A DNA stretch of 64,000 nucleotides, from positions 10,978,501 to 11,042,500 of the forward strand of contig CM026571.1 in assembly GCA_015143295.1 (NCBI GenBank). Reading direction: 5' to 3'. The notes under the pieces are model-generated. The model saw nothing but the letters and a program-made list of their open reading frames with translations. It ran no database searches and was not told where the DNA came from. A program made the position numbers and the translations under genes. Of this stretch, positions 1-64,000 are shown one piece after another. The stretch is from Tetracentron sinense. Lineage: Eukaryota > Streptophyta > Magnoliopsida > Trochodendrales > Trochodendraceae. How positions within the stretch are numbered: the first letter of the stretch is position 1; each line of letters starts with the position of its first letter.

Positions 1-3000
1 GAGGAGAGAGATGGTGCTGCAGACATTGGTGACGCCCAAACTGTCAATTTAATTGAAAATGCATCTGCAAAGGTTGACAAAATCGGGGATTTGACTCCTG
101 TCCAAGATTTTGAAGCCATGATATCACGCAGAGATAGCACAAAATGGGTTAATAAAGCAATTAGAGATATGAAAAACATAATTTTTGACCTGGTGGAGAA
201 CTCCTATGAAGGTGACACTTATCAGAAGGCACTGGAATGTTTAGTTGCTCTTCGCAAGGGTTGCATTCTTGAGCAGGTATGCCTTCTTCTACTGTTTCCG
301 TTTTCAATATTCTCTGGCATGCAACGATTGCAGAAATTGGAATTTTGCCGTATATGACCATCTATATTAATTCAGTAAATCATGGCCACATTTTCCTTGG
401 TTTTGAGGCGAGTTATTTATTGGTAACAGAATATGATATTAAAACTAATCAAAGAGAACAAGCACCAAAAAAATCCCCACGAAAGGAAGCAAAAAGGAAC
501 ATCGACAAAGCCGAAGTTGGAAACTACAAAGTCAAGGTGGATGAAACTCACACCATAGACTACCCTATACCTTCTCCTTGGTTAGAGAAGTCAATTGCAC
601 TTCTAGACATTTCCTTGCAATACTACAGTACGAACTTCCTGAGCAATGTGCATGCAACATTAGGGAGCACTATCCTTCCCAGAGGCTCACCCGGTGCCTG
701 GTGGGTGGTGGCCAGCCTAGACTAGAGTCACCTTCGTCCTTCTATAGTTATGTGAAGAAATCCATACTCAATAGCATAGATCAGCCACATTCTCAAAGCT
801 AACAACTCAGCGTGGTTCCAAGTTGTGAAACCCACTGGCCCCGAAACTCGTTGGCTGAGTTTATTCTTTTTTTGATATATGGTATTGTATCCTGTTGACT
901 CTATCAGAAAAAACAACTTTAATAGCTCAATGGTATTTGTCCTTTCTTTGCTTTCATCCTCTTTTTACTGGTTATCATTTTCACTTTGCAAAATACCACA
1001 TTAGAAAATACTGTGATTCAAACCTCAGCTCTTTATGTTTTGTGCAGCTTCTCAATTTTCCAAGTAGCTGCAAGAAATTAATATTCCACTACATTCATTC
1101 ATGTCCGTAGAGTTGTTCATAATGATCTTAATACTAGAAAGAAAATATGTATGTATACCTAGTTACCTACTTATCTGATAGTGTTAACATGGTTATTTGT
1201 TATTTAAACGAAATTGTGATGGTGACTGTCCGTACTCATTCCTCTCCACTGAATAATATCATTTTTGTAGCTAAGTCAATTACATTTCATAACTTGAGGG
1301 AAACCACTTTTACACTGCCATCAGTATTAAGCTTCAATGGTTAAACATTAGGCTAGTGGCTGTTTGTTACAATAGGGCTTTCAGTTTTCAACATTGCATG
1401 TACTTTATGAGCTATGAGTCTACTGTTCTGTAAGGTATCAAGAAAATGATTCATGTTTAATTCAGATAATTGTCAACAGAAAAGTTGACAGCATAAAGGG
1501 TTAAAAAAAGGAGACATTCATGATCCTTCTTTTCCCTGGTATACATTAAATCCATGATCCTGCAACTGATGTACTTTGCTGTATTAACGAAATACCATCT
1601 CCTAGTTTTTTGTTGACCATCAGCTTTAAAAATTACTATATCACTTCCTTTTTGGCCCACAACATTTTATCCTGGGGCCTTCGAGCCCTTCTTGAGAAAG
1701 GATTTTAGTTTGTCCTTGATCTTGGTTTCAATTCTCTAAAAAAAACTCTCTTCTCAGTTTGAGGTTTCTTTACATTTTGTGGTCATAGAAATATATATGA
1801 TGTATGTATTGATAACTAACTGGTTGCATGTCAGTGTCCAAGTTTAAGGATGTAGAAAATTTTCTGTCTTTTAAAAATTATTAAATGAAATATATATATA
1901 TATATAAAGACCACAACAGCCTATTTGCTTCCAAAAAAATACAAGCACCAAAATGAGCCACAAGCATCCTATTCTGGAACTGGTAGTGTACTTTTTGTTT
2001 TTTATTACCATATTGGGGACTGATAAAAAACATTTAGAAAATGTTTAACGAACAGATTTCAACTACTACAAGAAATGCTCTTCCAGTCAACTTGAAGTTA
2101 TAGATCACTTTTAGCCTAGTCAACACGATCTAACTTATTCATGTTTCTTTTCTGGGACTCTGGATTGAGGTCATATTTAGTTCCTTAGTTTCTTAAGGAG
2201 CTTGATCATTGATATTATCTGTTAGGGCCCGTTTAGACTGCCACATGGTTAGCGTCACTCAGACTAGTGATAAGTGATAACCATGATTACTGCAGAACAT
2301 GAAAGAAGTCAACATTAGCTTCTTTCCATTAAAAAAAAAAAAGTGTTGATTTTCTGGGGCCAAAAGTGTTGGTTTTGCCAGTTAAAATGGCTGTCCATGT
2401 TGTCCAACTGTGCAGCTTCCTAGATGTGGATGGCTCCACTAAACCACTACATTTTGGGAATGTACAAACAGGTCCTCAGTCAAGTATTCTAATCATGCAA
2501 TTTGCTTCATGTGAAGATGCAATTTATAATTTCATGGTTTATATCAATGTATTAGAAGGCTGATAAACACTTGAAATTGCCATTGACAAATCATGATTTT
2601 GTATAATACTATCACGAAAACTGATTTAAAGAAAATCAGTGGTGATATTTCTTAGTTTCATTCTATCACCTGTGTTGCATCATGTGGCCTCGACATGTCA
2701 TGTAGTTGTCGCCATGGGAAGGACACCGTCATTATATTACTTACTGCATATGCTCACACACACTGATAAATTATCCTCTCATTGAAGTTAATCTCATCGA
2801 CCATATTCAACATTGTATCAATCAACTTCCACTTGGTCAAAGGACTTGTAATATAAGCTTTGAGTAGAACACTAAATTGAGGAGGTTACTCCCCATTTAT
2901 GTGTTTCAGGGTATCTCCCAGTGCCACTTTTGTGATCTCAGGCCAATCAACATATCCAATACCTTCCCCATCTCTCTCTGAATTCTGGATGGATGTCATG

Positions 3001-3313
3001 TATAGGAACCAAAACAGTTCAATGAATTCCTGCGCCATCTCTGTAAATTCTGCCAGGAGAAACAGCTCAGCAGTTTCTGTGAATTTCTTGCATCCAAACA
3101 AATTATGTTGATCACCAAGACAGAAGCCACTGACAGGTTTGCTCTACTGCATCTCATCTTGTTCATCATTTTCTTATGTCCGTATGGAAGCTGCTCATAC
3201 ATACCATATTGGATTTCTCATTTGTATTTTGTATATATGCATGCTTGATCAGTGATGCAACTGATGATGAGGCCAAAAGTTTCCTGATTAAAACCGAGCC
3301 CACACTCGAGTAG
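1..3313 (+). CDS. KU80: Ku80 (XRCC5-like), 3' end of gene, last three exons
   Basis: Ku80 pairs with Ku70, encircles broken DNA ends in the nucleus, starts non-homologous end joining and protects telomeres. The window opens inside an exon. Coding exons are 1-276, 3006-3136 and 3253-3313 (TAG stop at 3311-3313), giving 155 residues. All junctions are GT/AG and phases match (0, then 2). The first exon holds the conserved plant Ku80 segment KALECLVALRKGCILEQ, and the second continues with EPKQFNEFLRHLCKFCQ. These belong to the helical C-terminal arm and the start of the C-terminal region. The protein ends soon after an acidic DATDDEAKSFL segment, as plant Ku80 does, without the long DNA-PKcs-recruiting tail of vertebrates. 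The 2.7-kb intron between the first two exons is unusually large for this position. The 5' part of the gene lies upstream. Recognition is from memory of the family and is strong. The exon calls were made by hand. Confidence 0.93.
277..3005 (+). other. Large KU80 intron
   Basis: A 2,729-bp GT-AG intron. I see no gene in it. It is AT-rich, with a short (TA)n run near 1893-1906, a poly-A run near 2330 and a lone MITE-like arm at about 2224 (TTAGGGCCCGTTTAGACTG). The opposite arm was not found. Confidence 0.7.
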
Positions 3314-4616
3314 GTGACAGTCCCAACATGGTTGAAAGTTTCCTCTTTTTGGCTGTTGTGGTTGCACCTTTACAGTTGGAAAGATGCACTGAAGATGACT
3401 TCGGAGAGCTGATGATGTAGAGGTGAATCTTTTTTTGTACCCATTCATCTCAGCTGTATATTTTCTTGTTCTGTATGAACTGTGAGTATTCTGTGATGTG
3501 GGGATATATGTAACTTTTGGTATCATTTTGTATTTCCATATTTTGTAGTCTATTCCATAGTTGTAGGGATGCTATGTATGGGGTGTGATGTTTGCTTCTG
3601 TCATGTCCTATTTAATGGTCAAAAGGGCTATGTAGGTGGGACATGATGGGATAAACCCAAATTTTGGGGTGTAGAAATTAGCAAATATTATTGGATTGGA
3701 ACCAGTGTTTGATCAGGGAAAATAGGTGCATGAAATTATTTTCAGGGATAGAACTGTCATGGTGGAACATGAGTTTTGTTGTAAATGATTTGCAATAGTA
3801 ATTTATGTTTGAGGGATCTAAAAAATGAGTAATTATTTCTGACAATTTTATTTGGGTAATGCTCAACTTACTGCAGCATTAGATGTAGTCTAATGTGCAG
3901 TCCTCATTGGTCATGCCCCCTTTTTACCGCTCATCAATTGAAGATTCACTCACTCTTAGGGTTAAGCAGTATAACCTTAAGAAAAAAAAAACCGAAAATA
4001 TTAACTTAGAGTAAGTTGCGTGTATTTTATTGGGAAGTGATTCGAAAATCTCAATAGTAGGTACTATCGAGAGCCTACAATTTACATGCTTTAAGTGGTG
4101 GGCTCCACTTAATGCTTGACACCATTGGATTTTCAATCCAACGGTCCAACTGTCTGGTTTTTAATCACTTCCCTATTTTATTTCTCACTTTTAAACATTT
4201 TTTGAGTCTTGCTTTTGCATTGGTCATTGTGCTCTATTCGCATTCTTCATCTAGCAAGACTAATAAATGTGACTTGTGGACCCCCTAGTTGTATTCCCTT
4301 GTCTTTGCCTTCAGTCATTGCCTTGTTGTATGATTGAGTTTACCAAAAAAAAAAAAAAAAAAGGACCCCCTAGTTGTACACATGTTGACAGATTAACTTG
4401 AAATGGTTTCTGAAGCTAACTGACGTTGAATGCAAGAGCCTACAATCAGGCATAACGACAGTCCAGCCCTGCTCTCCAGAAGCCTTGCAGCCTGTGGGCC
4501 AGGGAAGTTTCAAAAAGCAAAGCCCTCTTACCTTAGAGTTGGGCTATGGCCCTATCCTCCCTGGCCCAACCATCGATTGTTTCTTACATATAGTAAAAAT
4601 ATGGTACATAGAAAAT
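3314..4616. other. KU80 3' flank with foldback-MITE debris
   Basis: This stretch holds the KU80 3' UTR and intergenic DNA, with no open frame I can support. From about 3870 to 3995 there is one arm of the dispersed foldback family (CCCCCTTTTTACC, then GATTCACTCACTCTTAGGG and an A-rich loop). A 21-bp poly-A run lies near 4344. Confidence 0.5.
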
Positions 4617-10954: not shown

Positions 10955-10996
<42 letters not shown>

Positions 10997-46468: not shown

Positions 46469-46830
46469 CTTTAGTAAGGAGGTGATAGCATGCATCTTAC
46501 ATGGCGGTACATGCACATATCCCAGCTCACCATGTGTTATCTTTGACACCCATTAACTTGTTACGATTCAGTCAACCTTAAAGTTAAATAATTTAACTTT
46601 GGAGTTTAGAAAAAAATATTTTCTTAAAAATTAATCACATGAACTAGTGAATCATAACTGAGGTCTAATTTTTTTTAAAAAAAACTAAGGTTAGATTATT
46701 TAACTTTATAAGTTATTGAATCTTAATCATAGTTAATGACTGCTAAAGAGAACACTTGGCAAGTTGAAGAGATGTGCACATACCACCCAATAGAACATCT
46801 AAGATGCATGCTATCATCTCCTTAGTGAAG
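46469..46830. mobile_element. Foldback MITE, complete copy (CTTTAGTAAGGAGG termini)
   Basis: About 31 bp at the ends are inverted repeats: CTTTAGTAAGGAGGTGATAG, then CATGCATCTTA, against (complement of right) CTTCACTAAGGAGATGATAG, then CATGCATCTTA. The inner core is a diverged form of the family (ACCTTAAAGTTAAATAATTT). Length 362 bp. Confidence 0.75.
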
Positions 46831-46917
46831 CACCTTTGCACGTGTAGAGGGAAGATGCTATGTGTGAGGGGACTACTCGGGCATTTGTCAGAGGAAATTC
46901 GTTATCCTTTATTATAT

Positions 46918-48027
46918 GGAAAATAATCCTCCCTATGCGGCACATGCAAGGAGGGTGTCGAGTCCCCCTTTTTTTCATCACATGTCTCTTTTTTGATTTC
47001 ATTTAATTGTGGTTAAAATTAACTAACTCTCCTGTAAGGGATAAAATTTGTAAAAATGATTAAGTGTTGGAGAACGAGCTAGCTTTTGTTGTTATGTTCA
47101 CAAAAGGGTGACAGGTGAATCACGTGATTAAAATAGAAAAATGGCCAGTTGCCCGATGCACAACATATCCGTCGTGTATTTCGCAAACGTACCCGTAGTC
47201 TTGTGAACAACATTTCCGGTGTGTTCTCAACAACGTTTCCGTTGTCTTTTACACAACGTATCCGTTGTGATCTCGACAACGATTCCGTTGTCCTATACAC
47301 AACGAACTCGTTGTCTTCTGGATAACTATGTTGAAACCTCATTTTAAGGCATATACAATGGACCCGAGCTCGAGTCAACAACGAGACCGACTCGCAGGAG
47401 GAAGTGATCAGGAGACGATCGTTTTATTTTGACAAGTAGGTGAAAAGTATTGTCTTGATATTTAATGCAGGTTACTTTTGTGTGCTGTCAGAAACAAATC
47501 AACTGAACTAATAGTAGACGCCCATGTGTGACACGTTAGATGGCAAATCTGTCTGACATATTTAGTAATCAGTGTAGACCACGTGGTATGGGCATCTATG
47601 ACTATCCATGAACATCTATGGGCATACCAAGCTAAATCTATAAATAGTTAAATACCCCGAGAAATTCAGTGCATAAGGATAAAAAAAAATCTCTACTCTT
47701 TCTCTCTCATCTGCTTTTGTGCTTGTTACTGTTCATCATCTTCTACATCTACTTACTTTGGCATTGGAGTACAGGTCAGGGTATCACACCCTTCAACTTC
47801 TACCTTTTACCAGTAAACCAGAGTTTGTGTAGCAGTTGCTGACGCGTGTCCTTCCTGGTATTTTCCCCTTCACCTCCAAATTTATATTTTTTTAAACTTT
47901 TATTTATTAAAAAAATTATAGTAAAAATTACTAACCAAAGTTAAAGAGAACTAGCATAATTAAAGAAGACACTTAGCAAAAAAAAAAAAAAAGGGAGGCT
48001 ATGCCGGCAAGGAGCAAACTATTGCTC
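46918..48027. mobile_element. Foldback MITE split by a solo LTR
   Basis: The left half 46918-47032 starts GGAAAATAATCCTCCC and runs to the core TTGTGGTTAAAATTAAC. The right half 47873-48027 completes the fold (ACTAACCAAAGTTAAAG...) and ends ACTATTGCTC, like the 42.9-kb copy. The LTR at 47033-47872 interrupts it. Confidence 0.7.
47033..47872 (+). mobile_element. Solo LTR of the Tat-lineage Gypsy family
   Basis: 840 bp, start TGTAAGGGATAAAATTTG, end TTTTCCCCTTCA. It aligns end to end with the LTR at 54012-54909, including the 23-bp palindrome array, a TATAAATA box (47639) and the shared GACGCGTGTCCTTCC near the 3' end. The flanks TCTCC/CCTCC fit a 5-bp target duplication with one difference. 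No internal sequence adjoins it, so it is a recombination remnant. It looks clearly older than the full element. Confidence 0.88.
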
Positions 48028-48144
48028 TTATATATTTTATTTTGTAAAGGCGTGTGCACACGTTATTGGACTTTCTAAGGAGAGAAATGCTAGCTCCGAT
48101 ACAGAGTTCCAAACTCAGATGGCTAAAGTGACATTGTAACAATT

Positions 48145-48370
48145 TATTATTTTATTTTATTTTATTTTTGGTTCGAGATATACATTTAAGCCGCAACGCC
48201 GGTTAGGTGTTAGTATTTGTTCAGTTAGTGGGTGGGTCGGTGTTAGTATTTGTTTAGTTAGTGGGCGGGTGGAGACTATATACAAACTTTCACCCTCTCG
48301 GGAATGGAACCTGGTACCTCCCCCAAAGCAGGGGATACACTACCATTGGGGCAAAGCCCTGGTGTGTTAA
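48145..48370 (-). mobile_element. tRNA-derived SINE remnant
   Basis: On the minus strand there is an A-box-like CCAATGGTAGTGTATC, a B-box-like CAGGTTCCATTCCCG, a body with CACTAACTAAACAAATACTA words and an A-rich tail (AAAATAAAATAAAATAAAAT). It resembles the 46.1-kb SINE. No clear target duplication. Confidence 0.55.
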
Positions 48371-48494
48371 CCAGTTTATCTTTACTCTTAAGAATAACGA
48401 CACAAGTTGTTGCTTTTATAGGTTATTTTTGCAATTGATTGAAATAACAATCTTATAAAAAGAACAAAATTGTCATTTTAACTTCGCTTGTGAC

Positions 48495-53600: not shown

Positions 53601-53637
<37 letters not shown>
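53601..53637. repeat. (GA)n microsatellite
   Basis: About 18 perfect AG units. Confidence 0.95.
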
Positions 53638-53817: not shown

Positions 53818-54011
53818 TCTGTACTATAATGAGAGAAGCCCCCTAATGATGGAAATTCTCAAACTACCCCCGTAGCCTGATTTTTGTCAATTCCCAAACT
53901 ACCCTTATATACAAACCTTACAAATTTTCTTTCATTTAATGTTTTACTTAATTTCCAAACTACTCCTTTCTCATCTACAATCTATTTAAAGTTACAAATT
54001 CCTAAACTACC
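53818..54011 (+). mobile_element. Helitron-like 5' end cut by the Gypsy element
   Basis: A|TCTGTACTATAATGAGAG, then AAGCCCCC, matches the 5' ends of the 22-24-kb Helitron units, as do the CCCAAACTACCCTTATA words behind it. The LTR at 54012 interrupts it. The rest would lie beyond the right LTR, outside the window. Confidence 0.6.
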
Positions 54012-54909
54012 TGTAAGGGATAAAATTCGTAAAACCAACTTAACGTTGAGGGACGAGCTCGTTTTTGTCGTTTTGTTCACGAAAGTGACACGTGGACACG
54101 AGTTGGGGTCACGTGCTTAAAATATAGGGGTCACACGTTGTCTGATGCACAACGATCCTGTTGTGCGCATTACGACGTCTTTGTTCTCATGCAGAACAAC
54201 GTTTCCGTTGTGGCTTTGACAACGTGCTCGTTGTCTAAAGCACAACGTGAACGTTGTGCTCTTGACAACGTCGTTGTCGTTACGCGAACAACGAGTCCGT
54301 TGTCTCACAAACAACGATGTCGTGCTGTATTTTAAGGCATCTACGCCGTAACCGAGCTTGAGTCAACAACGAGACCGACTCGTAGGAGGAAGTGATCAGG
54401 AGGCGATCCATAATTCCGACAGGCGTGCCGAACGCGCCGTTTCATGCCGAAAGCACTGTCTTGGCATTTAATGCTGGTCACTTCTGCGTACCGTCCGATC
54501 CCGTCCAATTGGACTTATAGGAGGCTCTCACGTGTAATGCAACCTGCGGCAGATATGTGTAAGATATTTGGCAATGAGTGCAAAGACACGTGGCATGGAC
54601 ACCTATGGCCATCCATGGTCATCGATGGCCATACCAACCCTTGCCCTATAAAAACCCCGTGATTTTTAGTGCACAGGACACTTGTTCATCAACCCAGATC
54701 CGAGAATACGTGTTCAGTGCATCCAGTGCCTTGCGTATTTTTCAGTGACTGTTCTAGCGTTTACTGTTCATCATCTTCTACACTTACTGACTTTACCATC
54801 GGAGTACAGGTCAGGGTGCCACACCCTCCGCTCCAACCTTCTACCAGTAAACCAGAACGTGGAAGAAGCTGCTGCTGACGCGTGTCCTTCCGGTATTTTT
54901 CCCCTCACA
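54012..54909 (+). repeat. Left LTR
   Basis: 898 bp, TGTAAGGGAT...CCCCTCACA. It contains the palindrome array (54149-54330), a TATAAAA box at 54647-54653 and the likely transcription start soon after. It is collinear with the solo LTR at 47033. Confidence 0.9.
54149..54330. repeat. Array of ACAACG-N4-CGTTGT palindromes at 23-bp period
   Basis: ACAACG begins at 54149, 54196, 54219, 54242, 54265, 54288 and 54311. The last six are spaced exactly 23 bp apart. Most are followed four bases later by CGTTGT. The solo LTR has the same array with marks at 47207, 47230, 47253, 47276 and 47299, plus two weaker units before. Confidence 0.93.
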
Positions 54910-54913
54910 AAAT

Positions 54914-54930
54914 TGGCGCCGTCTGTGGGA
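54914..54930 (+). other. tRNA primer-binding site
   Basis: TGGCGCCGTCTGTGGGA stands four bases inside the LTR border. TGGCGCC pairs with a tRNA 3' end in many Tat and Athila elements. Asp or Arg is possible, and I cannot decide. Confidence 0.75.
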
Positions 54931-54959
54931 AATAATAAACGGACCCCCCTTTGCTCTCT

Positions 54960-56650
54960 GTGATCATGGCTGATCAGTCAATAGTGTTTGGGCATGAGGA
55001 TCAAACCCCTCACGCCACTTCTTTCATACCTTCTGTCGTGCATATTCCTGGAGTCAGTCCTTCGTCTGGGCAACCAGAGAGGACCCTGCCCCCCCTGCTG
55101 AGCTCTCTGTTTCAGATCGCATCTTGGCGATGCTACAATTGCAGCAGTCTGCTCTGGATCAAATCACCAGGCAGCAGCAAGTGATGCAGGCAAGGCTGGA
55201 AGCATTCGAGCATAGCAGGCTCGAGGTGGATGATGTGCCACTGCAGAGGCCTTCCTTGAGACGTCAGTTTGACTTCTCTTCTTCTCCTTCTGCCCCGGAG
55301 AACCGTGAAACCAGGTTTGTACTTCTTCTTACTGAAGGGGATGTAAGGCAACCTCCGGTTCGGGCAGAGCAGAGCATCCCTTCGGATCGTGTGAATTTCA
55401 GAGAAGGAGCAGGAAGAGAAAACCTGAGAGTGGGTACTGGAGGCGCAGACACCCAGAAGACTTGGGTAACAGCCAAGGAGGTGGAGGCTTTAATCGGTGC
55501 TCGTGTTAAGAGCATGAAGGGAGGGATTCCTGACCACTTTGCTCAGTCAGTAAAGGACAACGTTGAGAACTCTCCTTTCACGGATGCCATCAACCAGTCC
55601 TATACTTCTTCCAAGTTCATAACTCCGATCTTCCCCATGTACACTGGAAAGACGGACCCGGAGGAGCATTTGTTTGACTTCAAGCACGCGATGGCTGTTC
55701 GCAACCCAGATGATGATCTGTATTGCAAGGCTTTCCCCAACAGCCTGTCTGGGGCAGCATCGAAGTGGTTTCAGAACTTGCCTCCTGGTTCCATCAGCAA
55801 CTTCTCGGAGCTCAGGTCGGCCTTTATTGATCGCTTCATCATCAATAAGAAGAAGAAGGCAGGTGCAGATACTCTCTTCTCTTTGAGGATGAAGCCGGCC
55901 GAATCCTTGAAGGACTTCATTTCGCGTTTCACCGATGAAGTCCACAACATTGACAAGGTTGACGAAGCGAGCTGCATCGCTGCTTTCAAGAATGTTATCC
56001 CTAAGCATTCCGAGCTTTACAAGTCCTTAGCTCTTGACTATCCTGTCAAGATGGACGAGTTGATGGTACGTGCCACCAAGTACGGGAGGTACGAGGAGGA
56101 CGTATCCGTCGTGTCAGTGCCGAAGCCCAGAGCGAGAGTGGTGGATGTCGTGGAGAGGACACCCCGATCATCGAAGAGGAAGGAGAAGAAGCAGATGTAC
56201 GAGTCTTCATCATCTGAGGGCTCGCCACCAAGGAAGCAGAGGGAGAGAGTTGTGTATGTAACCCAGCGGGATCAGCCGGATCGACGCCCGCTGGAAAGAA
56301 ATTTTAACCAGCATCAGAGCAGGACGGAGAGGCGTCCTAATGACCAGCAGGCGAGGCAGCAGTATCAGCCATGCCAGGTGCAGCCTCAAGTACAGCACGA
56401 GAGAGGCGTACATCCTAATGAGAGGCGATCTTTTGCAGATCAAACACCGCGCATCAATTTCACAGTCAGCCCGGCGACCATCATGAGGTCAATGGAGGAT
56501 CAGCCATACTTTGAGTGACCGGCGAGGGCGGTGCAGGATATTACATCGGGACCACGGGTGCATGAGTATTGTCACTATCACAAGTGCCGTGGTCATCATG
56601 AGGTCAACAGATGTCGTATTCTGAGGGAATATTTGGAGAGGCTTGTTCAG
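54960..56650 (+). CDS. Gag region of the Gypsy element (approximate)
   Basis: The capsid-like core (LFDFKHAMAVRNPDD, FISRFTDEVHNIDKV) is typical of plant Gypsy Gag. An Arg/Gln-rich stretch follows, then a Cys/His knuckle-like motif CHYHKCRGHHEVNRC. Fossil element; see the parent entry for its state. Confidence 0.85.
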
Positions 56651-56799
56651 GAGGGGTACTTGGGAGAGTATCTTGCTCCTGACAACGGCGGTGGGGAGCG
56701 CACCAGGGAGCCGGTCTCCCAATCTCGTGGAGGAGAACCCGCCAATAATCCCAGTACCAGTGGAGGAGCTTCCTTGGGCACGATCAATGTCATTTGCCG

Positions 56800-57250
56800 C
56801 GTGCAAACGCCGGAAACTGATGTGGAGAGGAACTTCAGGGCGAAGGCCAGGAAGCTGTCTCATGAGGCTGCAGTGTGCCAGGTGCAAGTGCCCAGCAGAA
56901 GCGTTGAGCAGGCACTCACCTTCACTGATCGTGATCTGGCAGGAGTGATCCGACCTCACTATGATGCTCTTGTTCTCACCATGAGAATAGGAGACTTCGA
57001 CATCAAGAGAGTGCTCGTGGATTCTGGGAGTGGAGCAGACATCTTGTACCTTCATGCTTTCACTCAGATGAAGCTGGATCCTTCCGTCTTCATCCCTGCT
57101 CAGACTCCCCTGTACGGATTTGATGGCAGCTCGATGAAGCCTGTAGGCGACGTTGTCTTGCCCGTTGTGGCTGGACCCGTTGTCCTCCAGACCAGGTTTT
57201 TCGTCCTGGACGCGCCATCACCGTACAATGCCATCTTGGGTCGTTGGTAG
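56800..57250 (+). CDS. Aspartic protease region (approximate)
   Basis: The active-site motif VDSGSGADILYL lies near 57015, with the later ILGR motif near the end, as in retropepsins of Tat elements. Confidence 0.85.
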
Positions 57251-57399
57251 ACCCATGAGATGAAGGCTGTTCCGTCCTCGTACTACCAGGTGTTGAAGTA
57301 TCCAACGCAGGACGGGCCTCAGGAGATCCGAGGTGATCAGTTGGCATCGCAGAAGTGCGATTTTTCTACTTCCGTTGTGCCCTCATAGCAGTTACAGGT

Positions 57400-60300
57400 C
57401 GCTCCCGTTGTGGAGGAGAGCTCGGAGACATCGTTGTGCAGACCTTCCGTTGAGCCCACGAAAGCTGTCAATTTGGGAACGAAAGAAGAGCCAAAGGTGT
57501 TGCAGGTCGGGACGAGCTTGACAACGGAGGAGAAGCTCGAGTTGCTGAGTTTTCTTAGGCAGAATCTTGATGTCTTTGCATGGTCTCACAAAGATATGAC
57601 TGGTATCGATCCGAGTGTTATCTGTCATCACCTCAATGTTGATCCTGCTATCCCTCCAGTGAAGCAGAAACCTCGGAGGCTTGCCCCAGCTTACCATGAT
57701 GCAGTGAATGAGGAGATTGACAAGCTGATCCAGTTCGGGTTCATTCAGGAGGTGCAGTACCCTGATTGGATAGCCAATGTTGTGGCTGTGCCTAAGAAGA
57801 ACGGGAAGGTGAGAGTTTGCATCGACTTCACCGGTGTCAACAAGGCGTGCCCCAAAGACTTTTTTCCCATGCCAAGGATAGACAGGCTCATCAACGCCAC
57901 TGCTGGCCACGAGATGTTATCCTTCATGGATGGTTATTCGGGCTATAACCAGATCCTCCTGGCGGAAGCAGATCGAGAGAAGACCACCTTCATAACAGAG
58001 CGAGGTTTGTTCTGTTATCGGGTGATGCCTTTTGGCTTGAAGAATGCAGGTGCCACCTATCAACGTCTGATGAATCTCATGTTCGGGTCACTCCTTGGCA
58101 AGACGGTTGAAGTGTACATCGACGACATCGTTGTGAAGAGTCGAGTACGAGGTACTCTGGTGGCGGACCTTGCTGAACCTTTCTCTGTGCTGCGATCTTT
58201 CAATCTAAAGATCAACCCAGAGAAGTGCACTTTCGGAGTTACCTCAGGAAAATTTTTGGGTTACCTTGTGAGCCAGCGGGGAATTGAGGCTAATCCAGCT
58301 CAGATCCGTGCTTTGCTGGACATGCCAGAGCCCAAGTCGAAGAAGGAGATCCAGAAGCTGACAGGCCGGATTGCTGCGCTCAATCGGTTTATCTCTAAGT
58401 CGTCCAATCGTTGCAAACCTCTGTTCGAGCTGCTGAGGAAGGACTCCATTTTTGCGTGGACTCCGGAGTGTTCCCGAGCTTTCCTTGCCTTGAAGGAGTA
58501 TTTAGGCTCAGCTCCTATCCTATCGGTGCCAGAGCCAGGTGAAATCTTATATCTCTATTTGTCTGTTTCAGAGCAAGCCCTTAGTTCCGTCCTGGTGAGG
58601 AGCTGTGATGGGGTGGAGAAGCCTGTCTACTTCATCAGCAAGACCTTTCTCAAGGCAGAATGCAATTATAGCAAGCTCGAGAAGGTGTGTCTGGCTCTTG
58701 TCTTTTCTGCAGAGAAGCTTCGTCCGTACTTTCATGCTCATTCTATCGTTGTCATCACAACGTATCCTTTGAAAGTCGTGCTGGGACGACCCGAGCTGGC
58801 GGGGAGGATGTCAAAGTGGGCTGTAGCTCTGAGTGAGTTCGATATCCAATACCGGGCCAGGAACTCAGAGAAGGAGCAAGCGATGACGGGTTTTCTTTCT
58901 GATTTCCCTGTGGAGGAGGAGGCAGAGGACATGGTTGTTGATCTTCGGGAGCTCCCAATTGAAGTTGACAACAGAGATGCCGTTGTGGAGGGGGCCGAGT
59001 CGTCAGAGTGGAACGGTTGGCTGTTGTACGTGGACGAGTCTTCCAATTTCAGTGGTTCGGGACTAGGCGTTGTGCTCATAAGTCCGGACAACATCAAAGT
59101 GCAGAAGATGTCGCGTCTTGGGTTCACTGCCTCCAACAACGAGGCTGAGTACGAAGCCTTACTCCTTGGGTTGGAGAGTGCACGAGAGCTGCAGATCTCC
59201 ACGTTGAGAGTGTTTTGTGATTCACAGCTCTTGGTGAATCAGGTGAATGGTGTTTATGATTGCAAGGACGACCGGATGAAGCAGTATGCTACTCTCGTTC
59301 GTTCGTTGTGTGAAAGATTCACCGTTGTGGAGATCAGGCACACCCGAAGAGATGAGAACAGGCACACTGATGCTTTGGCGTATCTAGCTTCTATGGTGCA
59401 GGCTGACGAGCCTAAGGCTATTCTGATGGAGTTTCAAGAGTATCCTTCGATAACTCTTCAGGCACAGCGAGAAGTGTTCTTTGTCAATCCAGTCCCGAGC
59501 TGGATGACAGGGTTGGTGGCTTATCTAAAGGACGGAGTTCTCCCTATCAGTGTGAAGGAGTCGAGGCCCATTCAGTTCAAGGCATCTCGTTATACCTTGG
59601 TGCAAGGAGAATTGTTCAGGAAATCTTTTGGTGGTCCCTTGCTGAAGTGTGTTCATCCTGTAGACGTGGAGAGAATACTTGCTGAGCTACATGAAGGTAT
59701 ATGTGGCATTCATTCGGGCGGGAGAACCATTGCCCATCGAGCTCTGGGGCAAGGTTACTTCTGGCCTTATATGCAGGCCGATGCTCAGAAGTATGTGAAG
59801 AGGTGCAGCCAGTGCCAGCGGTTTGCTCGCTTGATTCATGCTCCAGCTCAAGAGCTCAGCACTGTATCTCAGCCTTGGCCGTTTGCGCGGTGGGGACTTG
59901 ATATTGTGGGACCTTTCCCGAGGGCTCCAGGGAATCTGATCTTCCTTCTAGTGGCAACTGACTACTTCTCTCGGTGGATTGAAGCTGTTCCCCTTGCACG
60001 TATCAGAGAACAAGAGGTGAAGAAGTTCTTGTGGGAGCATATCATTTGCAGATTTGGCATACCGCAGTCCATCATTACTGACAACGGGAAGCAGTTCTCA
60101 GGACGTTTGATTGCCGACTTTTGCAGCGAGCTGAAGATCAAACATGTCTTCTCTTCCCCATATTATCCCCAGGGGAATGGATTGGCCGAGGCAGCCAACA
60201 AGAATATTCTCAATGCCTTGAAGAGAAGACTGGAATATTCGAAGGGGAAGTGGACCGCCGAGCTGCACAACGTTTTATGGGGGTACAGAACAACTCCAAG

Positions 60301-60740
60301 GAGCCCTACCAATGAAACTCCTTTCTCTCTAGCGTATGGCATGGAGGCTGTCATTCCAACAGAGATCAGTTTGCCTACCGTGCGTTCTTGGCACAACAGG
60401 AAGAAGGGTGGAGAGAAAGATCAGAACGCAGAGCTCATGGCTATTCATCTTGATCTGCTAGAAGAGAAGCGAGAAGATGCCAGCATTCAGATGAGGAGGT
60501 ATCAGCAGCGATTGAGGAAAGCCTACAACAAGAAAGTACAACGGAGAGTGCTGCAGGTCGGTGATCTCGTCCTCCGAAGAGTGTTCCAGAACACAAGAGA
60601 GCTTAACAGTGGCAAGTTGGGACCAAACTGGGAAGGGCCTTATATCGTAGAACGGTTGGGAAGTCCTGGAGTCTGCTACTTGAAAGACTTGCAAGGTAAC
60701 CTCATCTCGAAATCTTGGAACATCATGAATCTGAGGTAAT
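57400..60740 (+). CDS. Pol region: RT, RNase H, archaeal-type RNase H, integrase (approximate)
   Basis: The RT spans about 57650-58300 with VCIDFTGVNKACPKD, FMDGYSGYNQI and YIDD (58115). RNase H covers about 58540-58860. A second RNase H of archaeal type (LLYVDESSN..SGLGVVL, NNEAEYEALLLGLE, FCDSQLLVNQV) covers 59010-59400. Integrase starts with an HHCC zinc-binding region (HEGICGIH...CSQCQ, 59690-59820), then the DDE core (LDIVGP, TDNGKQF, PYYPQGNGLAEAANK; 59870-60230) and a C-terminal domain to about 60740. The two RNase H domains place it in the Tat clade. Confidence 0.93.
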
Positions 60741-61129: not shown

Positions 61130-61450
61130 AGTGCTTGCTCGTAGTGCTTGTTCATAAGCGATTGCTCGTAGTGCTTTGCTCATAGTGATTGATCGTGGTG
61201 CTTGCTCGTAGTGTTAGCTCGTAGTGCTTTGATCGTAGTGCTTTGCTCTTGGTGAACGCTCATAGCGAACGCTCGTAGTGCTTTACACGTAGTGTTTGCT
61301 CGTGGTGCTTGCTCGTAGTGCTTTGATCGTAGAGCTTTGATCGTAGTGCTTTGATCGTAGTGCTCTATTCGTAGTAATCTACTTGTAGTGCTTGTTCGTT
61401 GTGCTTTGATCATAGCGTTCTACTCATAGTGTTCTGCTCGTAGTATTTTG
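61130..61450. repeat. Short tandem repeat block in the Gypsy 3' region
   Basis: About two dozen diverged units of 11-15 bp with consensus GCTCGTAGTGCTTTGAT. Tat-clade elements are known to carry tandem repeats between pol and the right LTR. Confidence 0.88.
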
Positions 61451-61787: not shown

Positions 61788-64000
61788 TCAGACGAGCTCA
61801 AGATCAGCATCTATTATCGTTGCAGCAGGGGCAGAAGTAGAGGCTTCAGCAGTTGGGGCTTCCACCGGAGTGACTTCATCGGCAGCAGCAGGGAGTTCTG
61901 TAGCAGCTGGCTCGGAGGATGGCTCAGCAGGGAGGGGTGCAGGACCTTCAAGAAAGTGAGGCAGCTCGACGCCTTGCACCTCGGGCTCGTTGTCGAGCTC
62001 GATCAGTTCTTTGCTCTGAAGCTCGGAGAACGTGGTTGCGTCCTCTTCATTGTCTTCTTTCAGGCGTCCTTGTTGGCGGAGTGATTCGAGAACCTCCTTC
62101 TCGGTCTCAGCACGATCTTCATCCAAGAGTGTGTCTAGCTGAGACTGATAGTGCTGTTGCAGTCTCAGGGTCACGGACCTCTCGGTGTCCTCTTGAGCTT
62201 TCTTGGCCTCCTCGAGCTCCTCCGCCAGTGCTGTCCTGGCTGCCTCAGTCTCCTCCAGCTGTCTGCCCAAGACTTGGGAGACATGCTCCAGCTCGCTGAT
62301 GCGTACAACAGCGTTCTCTACCTCCTGCTTGGCCTTCTTTTCGGCCTCCTTTGCTGATCGTGCCTCAGCCTCAGCCTTCTCCCGTACCTTGGTGGCAGTG
62401 TTTAGCCTTACCTCAGCACAAACAGTGTCGGCCTTGGCTTGAGACAGATCAAAGTCTGCCTTGAGTCTCTCTTCAACGAGAGTCTGCTCCAACGTCTCCG
62501 TCCTATCTTTCCAGTAATTAATCCCGTCTCGCAGTTGAGTGTACTTATTTTGGTTGCGATCACAGAGCTCTTGCACGAGTGTGTTCATCTGCAAGGAAGT
62601 GTCTGGGTGTTAGCACAACGAGAAGTAATATTTCAAACAGTTGAGGAAGAGGACGAGAGAGGGAGAAGCTTACTGTCGCCACCGACTGGTAGGCGGCGTA
62701 GGACAATTCGGACAGTTGGAGTTTGCCGACCTCAGCGATGTCCCGAGGCAACCTCATCGCGTAAGTTAGAGCTCGGGCGGCCTTCTCCGAGCTCTTCACC
62801 GATTCGTTCACGGTCGGTGAACCGAACTGAGAAAAGTCGGGTGACCAGTGCTGAACGAAGGACGGCAGCATACGATCCGGGAGACTCGTTGTGCCGGCTT
62901 CCGTTGCGGCCAAGGCAATGACAGCGGAGCTCGTGCTGGCGAGGGCAGTGGCAGCTCGAGAAGGGCCAGGCGCCGAGCTGGCCTCGGGCACTGCCGTTGT
63001 CACCTCTGCTCCTGGGCTTGTTGGAGGAGCGGCAGAGGTGGAGGGGGGAGCAGCAACGACTACGCTCTCTTTCTCCAGGCGTTTGTCCGCCTTAGCCTTC
63101 TTTCTGGCCTCGTACTCGGCCTGGGTGGGCATCTTTCTCTTCGGGTCAGCAGTCGCTGTACCCTTGGAAGAGTGGCTCCTCTTCTTCTTCGGCGGTGGTG
63201 GCAGTGGTGGCGGCTGAACCACAGGGCGAGCATACCTCGGCTTCCTGATTAGTGGGGGTGGATTTGTGTCAGTCATATCTTCTTCTTCTTCTTCTCCTTC
63301 GGCTAGATTAAGAGCTGGTGAAGGTGCGGAAGTGGAGGCGCCTTGTTGCTATCGCTGTTGCTGTTGTTGAGTAGTTGCTAGAGTGCTGGAGGAGACACGC
63401 GTGTCAGGCTGGAGTGGTTTCCACCTGATGTATTCCCCACCTCGAGCACGACGGATACCAGTAAGGAGGCCTTCTTCTTCTGGGGCCAACTTCTTGTACG
63501 GGAACTTCTTTGGGTCAACTGCACACAGGAAAGCAAAGTGAGTACAACGAGAGAATTAGCAGGACGAGAGCATACAACGTACAACGAGAACAGAGTCAGG
63601 ACAATGGTGCACAACGGACAACGGGTGACTATAGTGGTATACCTGCTTCCACTCGGAAGACGTTGGGGACCGTGGAACTCTCTGCCTTCCAGCCGCCAGA
63701 GACAACGAAAGGAGTGGCTTTCCATTTTCTTTCTCTATCGAGAATGCCTGAGACGAGCTCTGGATATAGGGGTTTCTTGTTCCACGAATAATAGGAGTAC
63801 AAACCATCGTCATTGCCTCGGCATCTGACGGCATGGCAGAAGTGGAATAGGTGCCTAGCCTCTATTGGGTATCCGTCCTTGATGAATTTGATCATCATGA
63901 ACATGTATTTGTGGAAGCCCGGGTGCTTGTCCCGGTGCGAGTTGCAGGGTGGACAGAACTTCTACCAAGACAGGATGAAGGGGGAAGCGGAGGCCAGCCT
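61788..64000 (-). CDS. Antisense gene in the 3' region of the Gypsy element (approximate, runs off the window)
   Basis: On the minus strand, opposite to gag-pol, long open stretches run from the window edge to about 61790. The part nearest the edge has a GLRFPLHP-like start, as in plant retrotransposon antisense or transposase-like proteins. A Pro/Lys-rich segment follows (PPLPPPPKKKRSHSSK), then a long Glu/Ala-rich coiled coil (about 62590-62000) and an acidic tail. Good GT/AG intron borders are visible (one intron about 62591-62674, another upstream), so the gene looks spliced. Antisense genes are known in Grande and related Tat elements. The function is unknown. Confidence 0.7.

Follow-up and report, generated by a model that had tools for sequence, protein, structure and literature searches.

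A near-periodic array of ACAACG-N4-CGTTGT palindromes in the LTRs of distant Gypsy lineages of Tetracentron sinense

The closest described counterparts of the array reported here are the repeated motif (RM) boxes of Sireviruses (Ty1/Copia), the motif arrays bound by VANC proteins in VANDAL transposons, and the region between pol and the 3′ LTR of Retand elements. The palindrome motif of the RM boxes is called Sirevirus-specific relative to the classic Ty1/Copia set compared, in the part of PMC2829016 that was available. Like the units described below, RM boxes are multiple short dyad palindromes located upstream of the TATA box, for the most part within the upper half of the LTR; the same part of that source also predicts CpG islands and proposes a cis-regulatory role (PMC2829016). 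The available text on VANDAL elements describes dense tandem arrays of short motifs in non-coding transposon parts, again as found here, and the motif recurs in an unrelated element (PMC5735166). Retand elements, in the sections of PMC11963269 at hand, resemble our element in their long pol–3′ LTR region, which carries ORFs on the antisense strand and, in many cases, tandem repeats. Among the titles and abstract openings listed in a literature search, with most subscription papers outside its coverage, none describes a palindrome array of this kind in the LTR of a Gypsy element.

The array lies in a window of 64,000 nucleotides (the whole stretch of DNA that was analysed) on contig C21 of a 1.16-Gb genome. 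It is part of the 5′ LTR of a Ty3/Gypsy element, which has an older LTR of the same group upstream of it. The features of the element and of the older LTR are as follows.

47031-47873, plus strand: diverged LTR of the window's group, old and apparently solo, 66.9% identical to 54010-54908, with the young element following some 6 kb downstream
54012-54909, plus strand: 5′ LTR of the Gypsy element, TGTAAG...CTCACA, 898 bp (LTR–LTR comparison)
54647-54653, plus strand: TATA box of the LTR promoter (direct reading)
54914-54931, plus strand: primer binding site (PBS) TGGCGCCGTCTGTGGGAA (sequence reading)
54998-56518, plus strand: gag open frame with Retrotrans_gag (ORF and Pfam)
56519-57250, plus strand: open frame between gag and RT, at the expected place of the protease (ORF)
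57389-60739, plus strand: pol open frame with RVT_1, RT_RNaseH, a second RNase H (RVT_3) and integrase (ORF and Pfam)
61130-61444, no strand: tandem repeats of 14, 27 and 40 bp in the pol–3′ LTR region (repeat search)
61788-63348, minus strand: a pair of antisense ORFs, 61788-62609 and 62560-63348 (ORF list); antisense frames continue outside the window
about 64530-64543 in window-equivalent numbering (L004 about 1025-1038), minus strand: antisense TATA-like box, about 200 bp before the antisense frame

The 3′ LTR is located outside the window, at 1371-2268 of locus L004 (window-equivalent 64876-65773). Because the two LTRs differ over their 898 bp by only 8 transitions and 4 transversions, four of these differences falling inside the array, the insertion is young; its 5-bp target duplication, CTACC, is found at 54007-54011 and again after the 3′ LTR. 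The coding domains (Retrotrans_gag, RVT_1, RT_RNaseH and rve) are of the Gypsy type, which bears out the first-pass annotation of the LTR. The pol frame was searched against Pfam in three pieces and contains RVT_3 at E 5.5e-19 in addition to RT_RNaseH. No Chromo match was obtained in the pieces of the element that were searched (to 60736), and the open frame at the expected place of the protease gave no Pfam match at E 0.01. A second RNase H domain is a feature of the Tat clade. The region between pol and the 3′ LTR spans about 4.1 kb (60739 to 64876) and holds the tandem repeats and the antisense ORFs, and the anatomy of the element as a whole appears to fit the Retand lineage (Ty3/Gypsy, Tat clade) as laid out in the available part of PMC11963269. 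The older LTR is not followed by a PBS in the sequence read around it (46600-48400). Two AG microsatellites of the same length (18 units each) are present in the window at 10958-10993 and 53601-53636.

Eight palindromic units stand in register in the 5′ LTR (54149-54326), with a possible ninth at 54126, and a second array occupies the older LTR. None of these features has a strand.

54126-54141: possible ninth unit, in register, with a degenerate left half-site and only the right one, CGTTGT, preserved (direct reading)
54149-54164: unit 1, ACAACG ATCC TGTTGT, one mismatch; the 3′ LTR copy is different at that base
54172-54187: unit 2, degenerate, three mismatches; 23 bp past 54149 and 24 bp ahead of 54196
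54196-54211: unit 3, exact palindrome, N4 = TTTC
54219-54234: unit 4, exact palindrome, N4 = TGCT
54242-54257: unit 5, exact palindrome, N4 = TGAA
54265-54280: unit 6, two mismatches, right half TGTCGT
54288-54303: unit 7, exact palindrome, N4 = AGTC
54311-54326: unit 8, two mismatches
47160-47314: second palindrome array, seven units starting at 47160, 47184, 47207, 47230, 47253, 47276 and 47299, the last four exact

Four of the eight units are thus exact; the other four carry mismatches (one in unit 1, three in unit 2, two each in units 6 and 8), and the steps from 54149 to 54311 measure 23, 24, 23, 23, 23, 23 and 23 bp. Palindromes had been annotated earlier at 54149, 54196, 54219, 54242, 54265, 54288 and 54311. 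All seven are present, but only those at 54196, 54219, 54242 and 54288 are exact, the one at 54149 having one mismatch and those at 54265 and 54311 two each, and the degenerate unit at 54172 had been missed. A degenerate unit also occupies the place of unit 6 in the relatives L020, L064, L065 and L066. The window contains 33 sites with at most three mismatches, against a shuffle mean of 15.2 (sd 3.5, maximum 23; 100 shuffles). The CpG observed/expected ratio is 1.64 and 1.81 in the two arrays as compared with 1.02 and 0.59 in the remainder of their LTRs. The array of the young element is placed upstream of the TATA box, as had been described, at a distance of 321 bp.

Genome-wide, the inner spacing of the dyad is fixed at 4 bp, in agreement with the first reading of the window. 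Exact ACAACG-N4-CGTTGT sites number 19,785, against 190 for the same pattern read backwards, whereas half-site spacings of N5-N12 (eight pooled) give 1,109 sites (backwards 648), about 139 per spacing, and spacings of N0-N3 (four pooled) give 618 sites (backwards 274), about 155 per spacing. The 4-bp inner spacing is therefore favoured more than 100-fold. Pairs of exact palindromes 0-30 bp apart give 9,217 matches genome-wide, with none for the backwards pattern; gaps of 0-6 bp are represented by 1,685 pairs and gaps of 8-29 bp by 1,528, and at least 6,004 pairs, if each pair start is counted once, have a gap of 7 bp (period 23) or of 30 bp (period 46 across an imperfect middle unit). A set of 74 loci yields 107 adjacent exact pairs, of which 90 are spaced at 23 bp, 14 at 22, two at 21 and one at 19; these loci do not overlap, seven overlapping or array-less ones having been excluded, and they are a non-random set, many having been picked via a palindrome pair, seven of these from lists favouring other periods. 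The fixed 23-bp period proposed at first therefore stands as the commonest one but is not universal, and a strict 23-bp helical phase was rejected, since periods of 21 and 22 bp also occur, mainly in one of the carrier groups described below (group 3).

The 16-bp unit obeys rules that extend into its spacer. Read from each half-site in 168 different contexts of exact units (both strands counted separately, and the contexts related by descent, so that the draws are not independent), the first N4 position is T in 48%, G in 34%, A in 17% and C in 1%, and the second is A in 48%, G in 36%, T in 16% and C in 0% after rounding. In the window's own group (100 contexts, strands merged), C is found at N4 position 1 in 2/200 and at position 2 in 1/200, as compared with 25% C in the linkers. 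The central bases do vary, as was reported initially, but within limits, and a free spacer was rejected because C is almost missing from the first two N4 positions. The rule is looser in imperfect units, of which 86 were retained (distinct in-register units with one to four mismatches, out of 175 distinct non-exact neighbours, the others being excluded as outside an array): C occupies the second N4 position in 7/86 and G the third in 9/86. The base adjoining the 16-bp unit is complementary in 27% of cases against 28% expected, and an extended inverted repeat was rejected, positions 1 to 6 outside the unit being at or under the expected complementarity. At the seventh base outside, complementarity exceeds expectation (0.44 against 0.27), a point against the operator reading given below.

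A symmetric unit of this kind could act as RNA, with 6-bp stems and 4-nt loops in transcripts serving for packaging or small-RNA production. The window array does fold better than shuffled sequence (−81.4 kcal/mol, z −5.08, 0/200 shuffles as good), but good folding is a property of any palindrome array; in maize Sireviruses, the LTR regions rich in palindromes are described as hotspots of small-RNA mapping in the available portion of PMC5311732. The 86 imperfect units contain nine double changes, against about 14 expected under independence. Five of the nine retain pairing, which is above one third, but three of these five affect the CG pair, which decays to A/T through methylation, and dead copies would in any case show little compensation, which makes this a weak test. 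Furthermore, the loop bases are restricted, and all three carrier groups contain exact sites of identical sequence, in loci largely picked by those letters. A pure RNA hairpin was rejected as the main reading, the double changes not rising above independence, and we regard a role of the array as RNA as very unlikely. Two protein contacts per unit account for these data better than an RNA stem under selection does, with the same caveat on dead copies.

Comparison between families indicates which parts of the array are held. Seventeen LTRs of the window's group were aligned to the window LTR, positions opposite gaps being omitted, and half-site identity exceeds both N4 and linker identity in 17/17 comparisons, so that the half-sites stay alike as the spacers inside and between the units change, as anticipated from the window alone. 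Half-site identity also exceeds that of the remainder of the LTR in 15/17, the exceptions being L019 (0.73 against 0.74) and L062 (0.67 against 0.75). Twelve of the 17 LTRs were found via exact palindrome pairs, a bias toward half-sites, and several are copies of one subfamily; the five found by whole-LTR similarity (the window solo LTR, L028, L039, L043 and L052) agree on all counts, with identities of 0.77-0.82 for half-sites, 0.38-0.56 for N4, 0.34-0.51 for linkers and 0.73-0.76 for the rest. The difference that is clear between families is modest within the solo-LTR family, where, over 30 recent copies, half-sites reach 0.826, N4 0.771 and linkers 0.769, and the half-sites stay under the LTR upstream (0.864) and downstream (0.848) of the array. 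The test put forward with the first reading of the window, whether family members keep half-sites better than spacers, therefore comes out mixed. This deficit is due to the fast decay of CG positions, which stand at 0.744 in half-sites against 0.866 for the other half-site positions, and at 0.755 against 0.858 outside the array. Such a pattern is expected if active elements are constrained and dead copies drift; alone it is no evidence of constraint.

The near-equal pace at which half-sites and other LTR sequence are lost in recent copies would suit a neutral tandem repeat, functionless and kept regular through slippage and gene conversion, as would the number of units, which is variable between loci. 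Tandem duplication contributes: adjacent units have 83% of their N4 bases in common in groups 2 and 3 (33 distinct pairs), and much of the regularity in these groups is therefore recent duplication. In the window's group, adjacent exact units have 39% of their N4 bases in common (45 distinct pairs). There, the half-sites have diverged far less between families than N4 and the linkers have, whereas homogenisation would take the spacers along, and the palindrome also recurs in groups whose LTRs share little sequence that can be aligned. A functionless repeat is accordingly highly improbable, and selection for the site of a dimer is the best reading of the array.

The carriers of the array fall into three element groups, according to a grouping of our own in which group 1 is the window's group and groups 2 and 3 comprise the other carriers. 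Outside the array, group 1 LTRs are alignable to the compared group 2 and 3 loci over stretches of 23-63 bp or not at all. Group 2 (L012/L013, L018, L054, L057, L058, L060 and L061) includes same-strand match pairs 1.9 to 3.1 kb apart. An LTR pair is demonstrated in this group only for L012/L013, with the 79 bp between both loci unread; it is about 1.8 kb, 94.8% identical, starts with TGTAAC and is followed by a PBS one base off that of the window element. Neither L012 nor L013 matches the gag or pol pieces of the window element, and they are therefore taken as non-autonomous, as the short elements of group 2 probably are. Right after the PBS, a second PBS-like sequence (four mismatches; L012 2438-2490) starts with the half-site ACAACG.

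Group 3 (L067-L077 and L079) is assigned to chromoviruses from one element, at C1:33994207 to beyond 34006200, to which the other members are linked through LTR similarity. This element contains Chromo (PF00385, E 4.5e-6), RVT_1, RVP_2 and Retrotrans_gag domains, and its LTR pair is 94.2% identical over 1,901 bp. Its PBS, TGGTATCAGAGC at 33996807, is presumably of the iMet type. The RT is 35% identical to that of the window element, and the array is located about 300 bp into the LTR, where a 26-bp tandem array, ACAACGTGTTCGGCACTATTCACAGC, with one half-site per unit adjoins the palindromes (L079 299-572). In L077, the chromovirus LTR body is inverted at 484-1483 and 2179-3340, flanking the palindrome array.

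Between groups 2 and 3 the similarity extends beyond the palindromes. L012 and the chromovirus LTR have in common a cassette made of palindromes and of a 26-bp tandem repeat with single ACAACG half-sites, which is 81% identical over 323 bp and runs in opposite orientations when each element is read along its own strand. Masking the palindromes leaves a match of 83% over 157 bp; the alignment is possibly shifted by whole units, the sequence being repeats.

We consider it moderately likely that the array is a cis-regulatory operator array, a series of orientation-free sites at which a dimeric DNA-binding protein, probably one of the host, would act to control transcription from the LTR. Each unit would offer two identical half-sites, ACAACG, each followed inward by two bases that are themselves subject to a preference. 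As the half-site centres are 10 bp apart, about one helical turn, a homodimer could reach both on one face of the DNA, and this distance, the rigid N4 and the inner-base preference together argue for a dimeric DNA-binding protein. Since the sites are symmetric, the array could act in either orientation, and units in series would raise local occupancy and thereby set the output of the downstream LTR promoter. A role in transcription is suggested by the position upstream of the TATA box, by CpG richness and by analogy with the Sirevirus RM boxes, as far as these are covered in the available part of PMC2829016. Activation would be our preference over repression; repression or anti-silencing, as with the VANC proteins in the available part of PMC5735166, would leave the same anatomy.

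The array is common to a Retand-like element, short elements and a chromovirus, and the reader is therefore most likely a host dimeric transcription factor tapped by several element types, the breadth of carriers being the one observation that bears on host origin. The first-pass annotation had pointed to a MYB-type factor. The plant MYB core is CNGTTR, and about one third of the half-sites extend to CCGTTG and fit it, but the remaining two thirds do not, with A in 48% and T in 17% at the position of the needed C. As C precedes CGTTG in only about 34% of half-sites, the MYB reader was a guess. A literature search on the half-site hexamers, with most subscription papers outside its coverage, tied neither a MYB nor any other plant factor to the motif. 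A reader of the MYB type is quite unlikely.

Alternatively, the array could be the target of a protein encoded by the elements themselves, for example the product of the Retand-like antisense gene, acting in anti-silencing or autoregulation as VANC does on VANDAL, with the other carriers as free-riders. The antisense frame of the window element at L004 350-826 (minus strand, window-equivalent 63855-64331) has a weak match to Transposase_28 (E 0.0099, 16.5 bits, cut-off 26.2). Of 150 candidates scored for this family (TRP28, PF04195) across the genome, 23 are over its cut-off. A TATA-like box is found 104 to 214 bp ahead of the extrapolated antisense start in 18/19 group 1 loci, a raw count over kin loci (19 left from 22 with a match after three overlapping ones were excluded, all relatives of one group). 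TRP28 antisense ORFs are reported in 97% of Retand clusters, and DNA binding is predicted, in the available part of PMC11963269, and VANC proteins bind tandem-arrayed motifs that are also present in the unrelated AT9TSD1, according to the available part of PMC5735166. An element-encoded reader is at odds, however, with the presence of the array in the chromovirus and the short elements. No antisense gene was seen in the chromovirus among the longer open frames of about 8 kb examined in pieces, and VANC21 motifs are arrayed in one orientation rather than as fixed dyads (PMC5735166, in the part available). We therefore view an element-encoded reader as unlikely and retain the host dimer as the preferred one. 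In group 1, the array of the 3′ LTR is also upstream of the antisense frame, 680 to 930 bp from its extrapolated start (18 loci), and the array might also serve a divergent antisense promoter with its own TATA-like box.

The recurrence of the array at thousands of places, including in distantly related elements, suggests dependence on one DNA-binding protein. It is possible, and we advance it only tentatively, that a single regulator-binding cassette is shared among distant Gypsy lineages, whether exchanged or independently built, and that the Retand-like family, the short elements and the chromovirus all answer one trans-acting dimer. If so, and if the dimer were encoded by one lineage, the other lineages would be stealing its expression or anti-silencing system; if it were a host factor, it would mark a common weak point in host silencing. 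A strict dyad operator in distant Gypsy lineages would mean that unrelated retrotransposons converge on, or trade, one regulatory handle. As such, ACAACG-N4-CGTTGT at about 23 bp provides a defined probe for a protein that might activate thousands of elements in one genome or keep them in check.

Relative to the described systems, the arrays combine familiar and distinct traits. Unlike the RM boxes of the Sireviruses, which are Copia elements, the palindromes here reside in Gypsy-type elements, including distant Gypsy lineages. The RM core is CGG-CCG except in Tnd-1 (ACAATCGATTGT) in the available part of PMC2829016, whereas the unit here is ACAACG-N4-CGTTGT with a near-fixed period. The VANC6 motifs, AGTTGTCC and AGTTGTAC, contain GTTGT, as does the half-site here, but VANDAL elements are DNA transposons with an element-encoded binder and, for VANC21, motifs in the same orientation; VANC binding has been demonstrated by ChIP-seq and EMSA (PMC5735166, in the part available). 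Retand repeats are described between pol and the 3′ LTR in the available sections of PMC11963269, and the palindrome arrays here are in the LTR. Palindrome clusters in plant LTRs are already known; to these, the present arrays add distant Gypsy lineages and an inverted common cassette.
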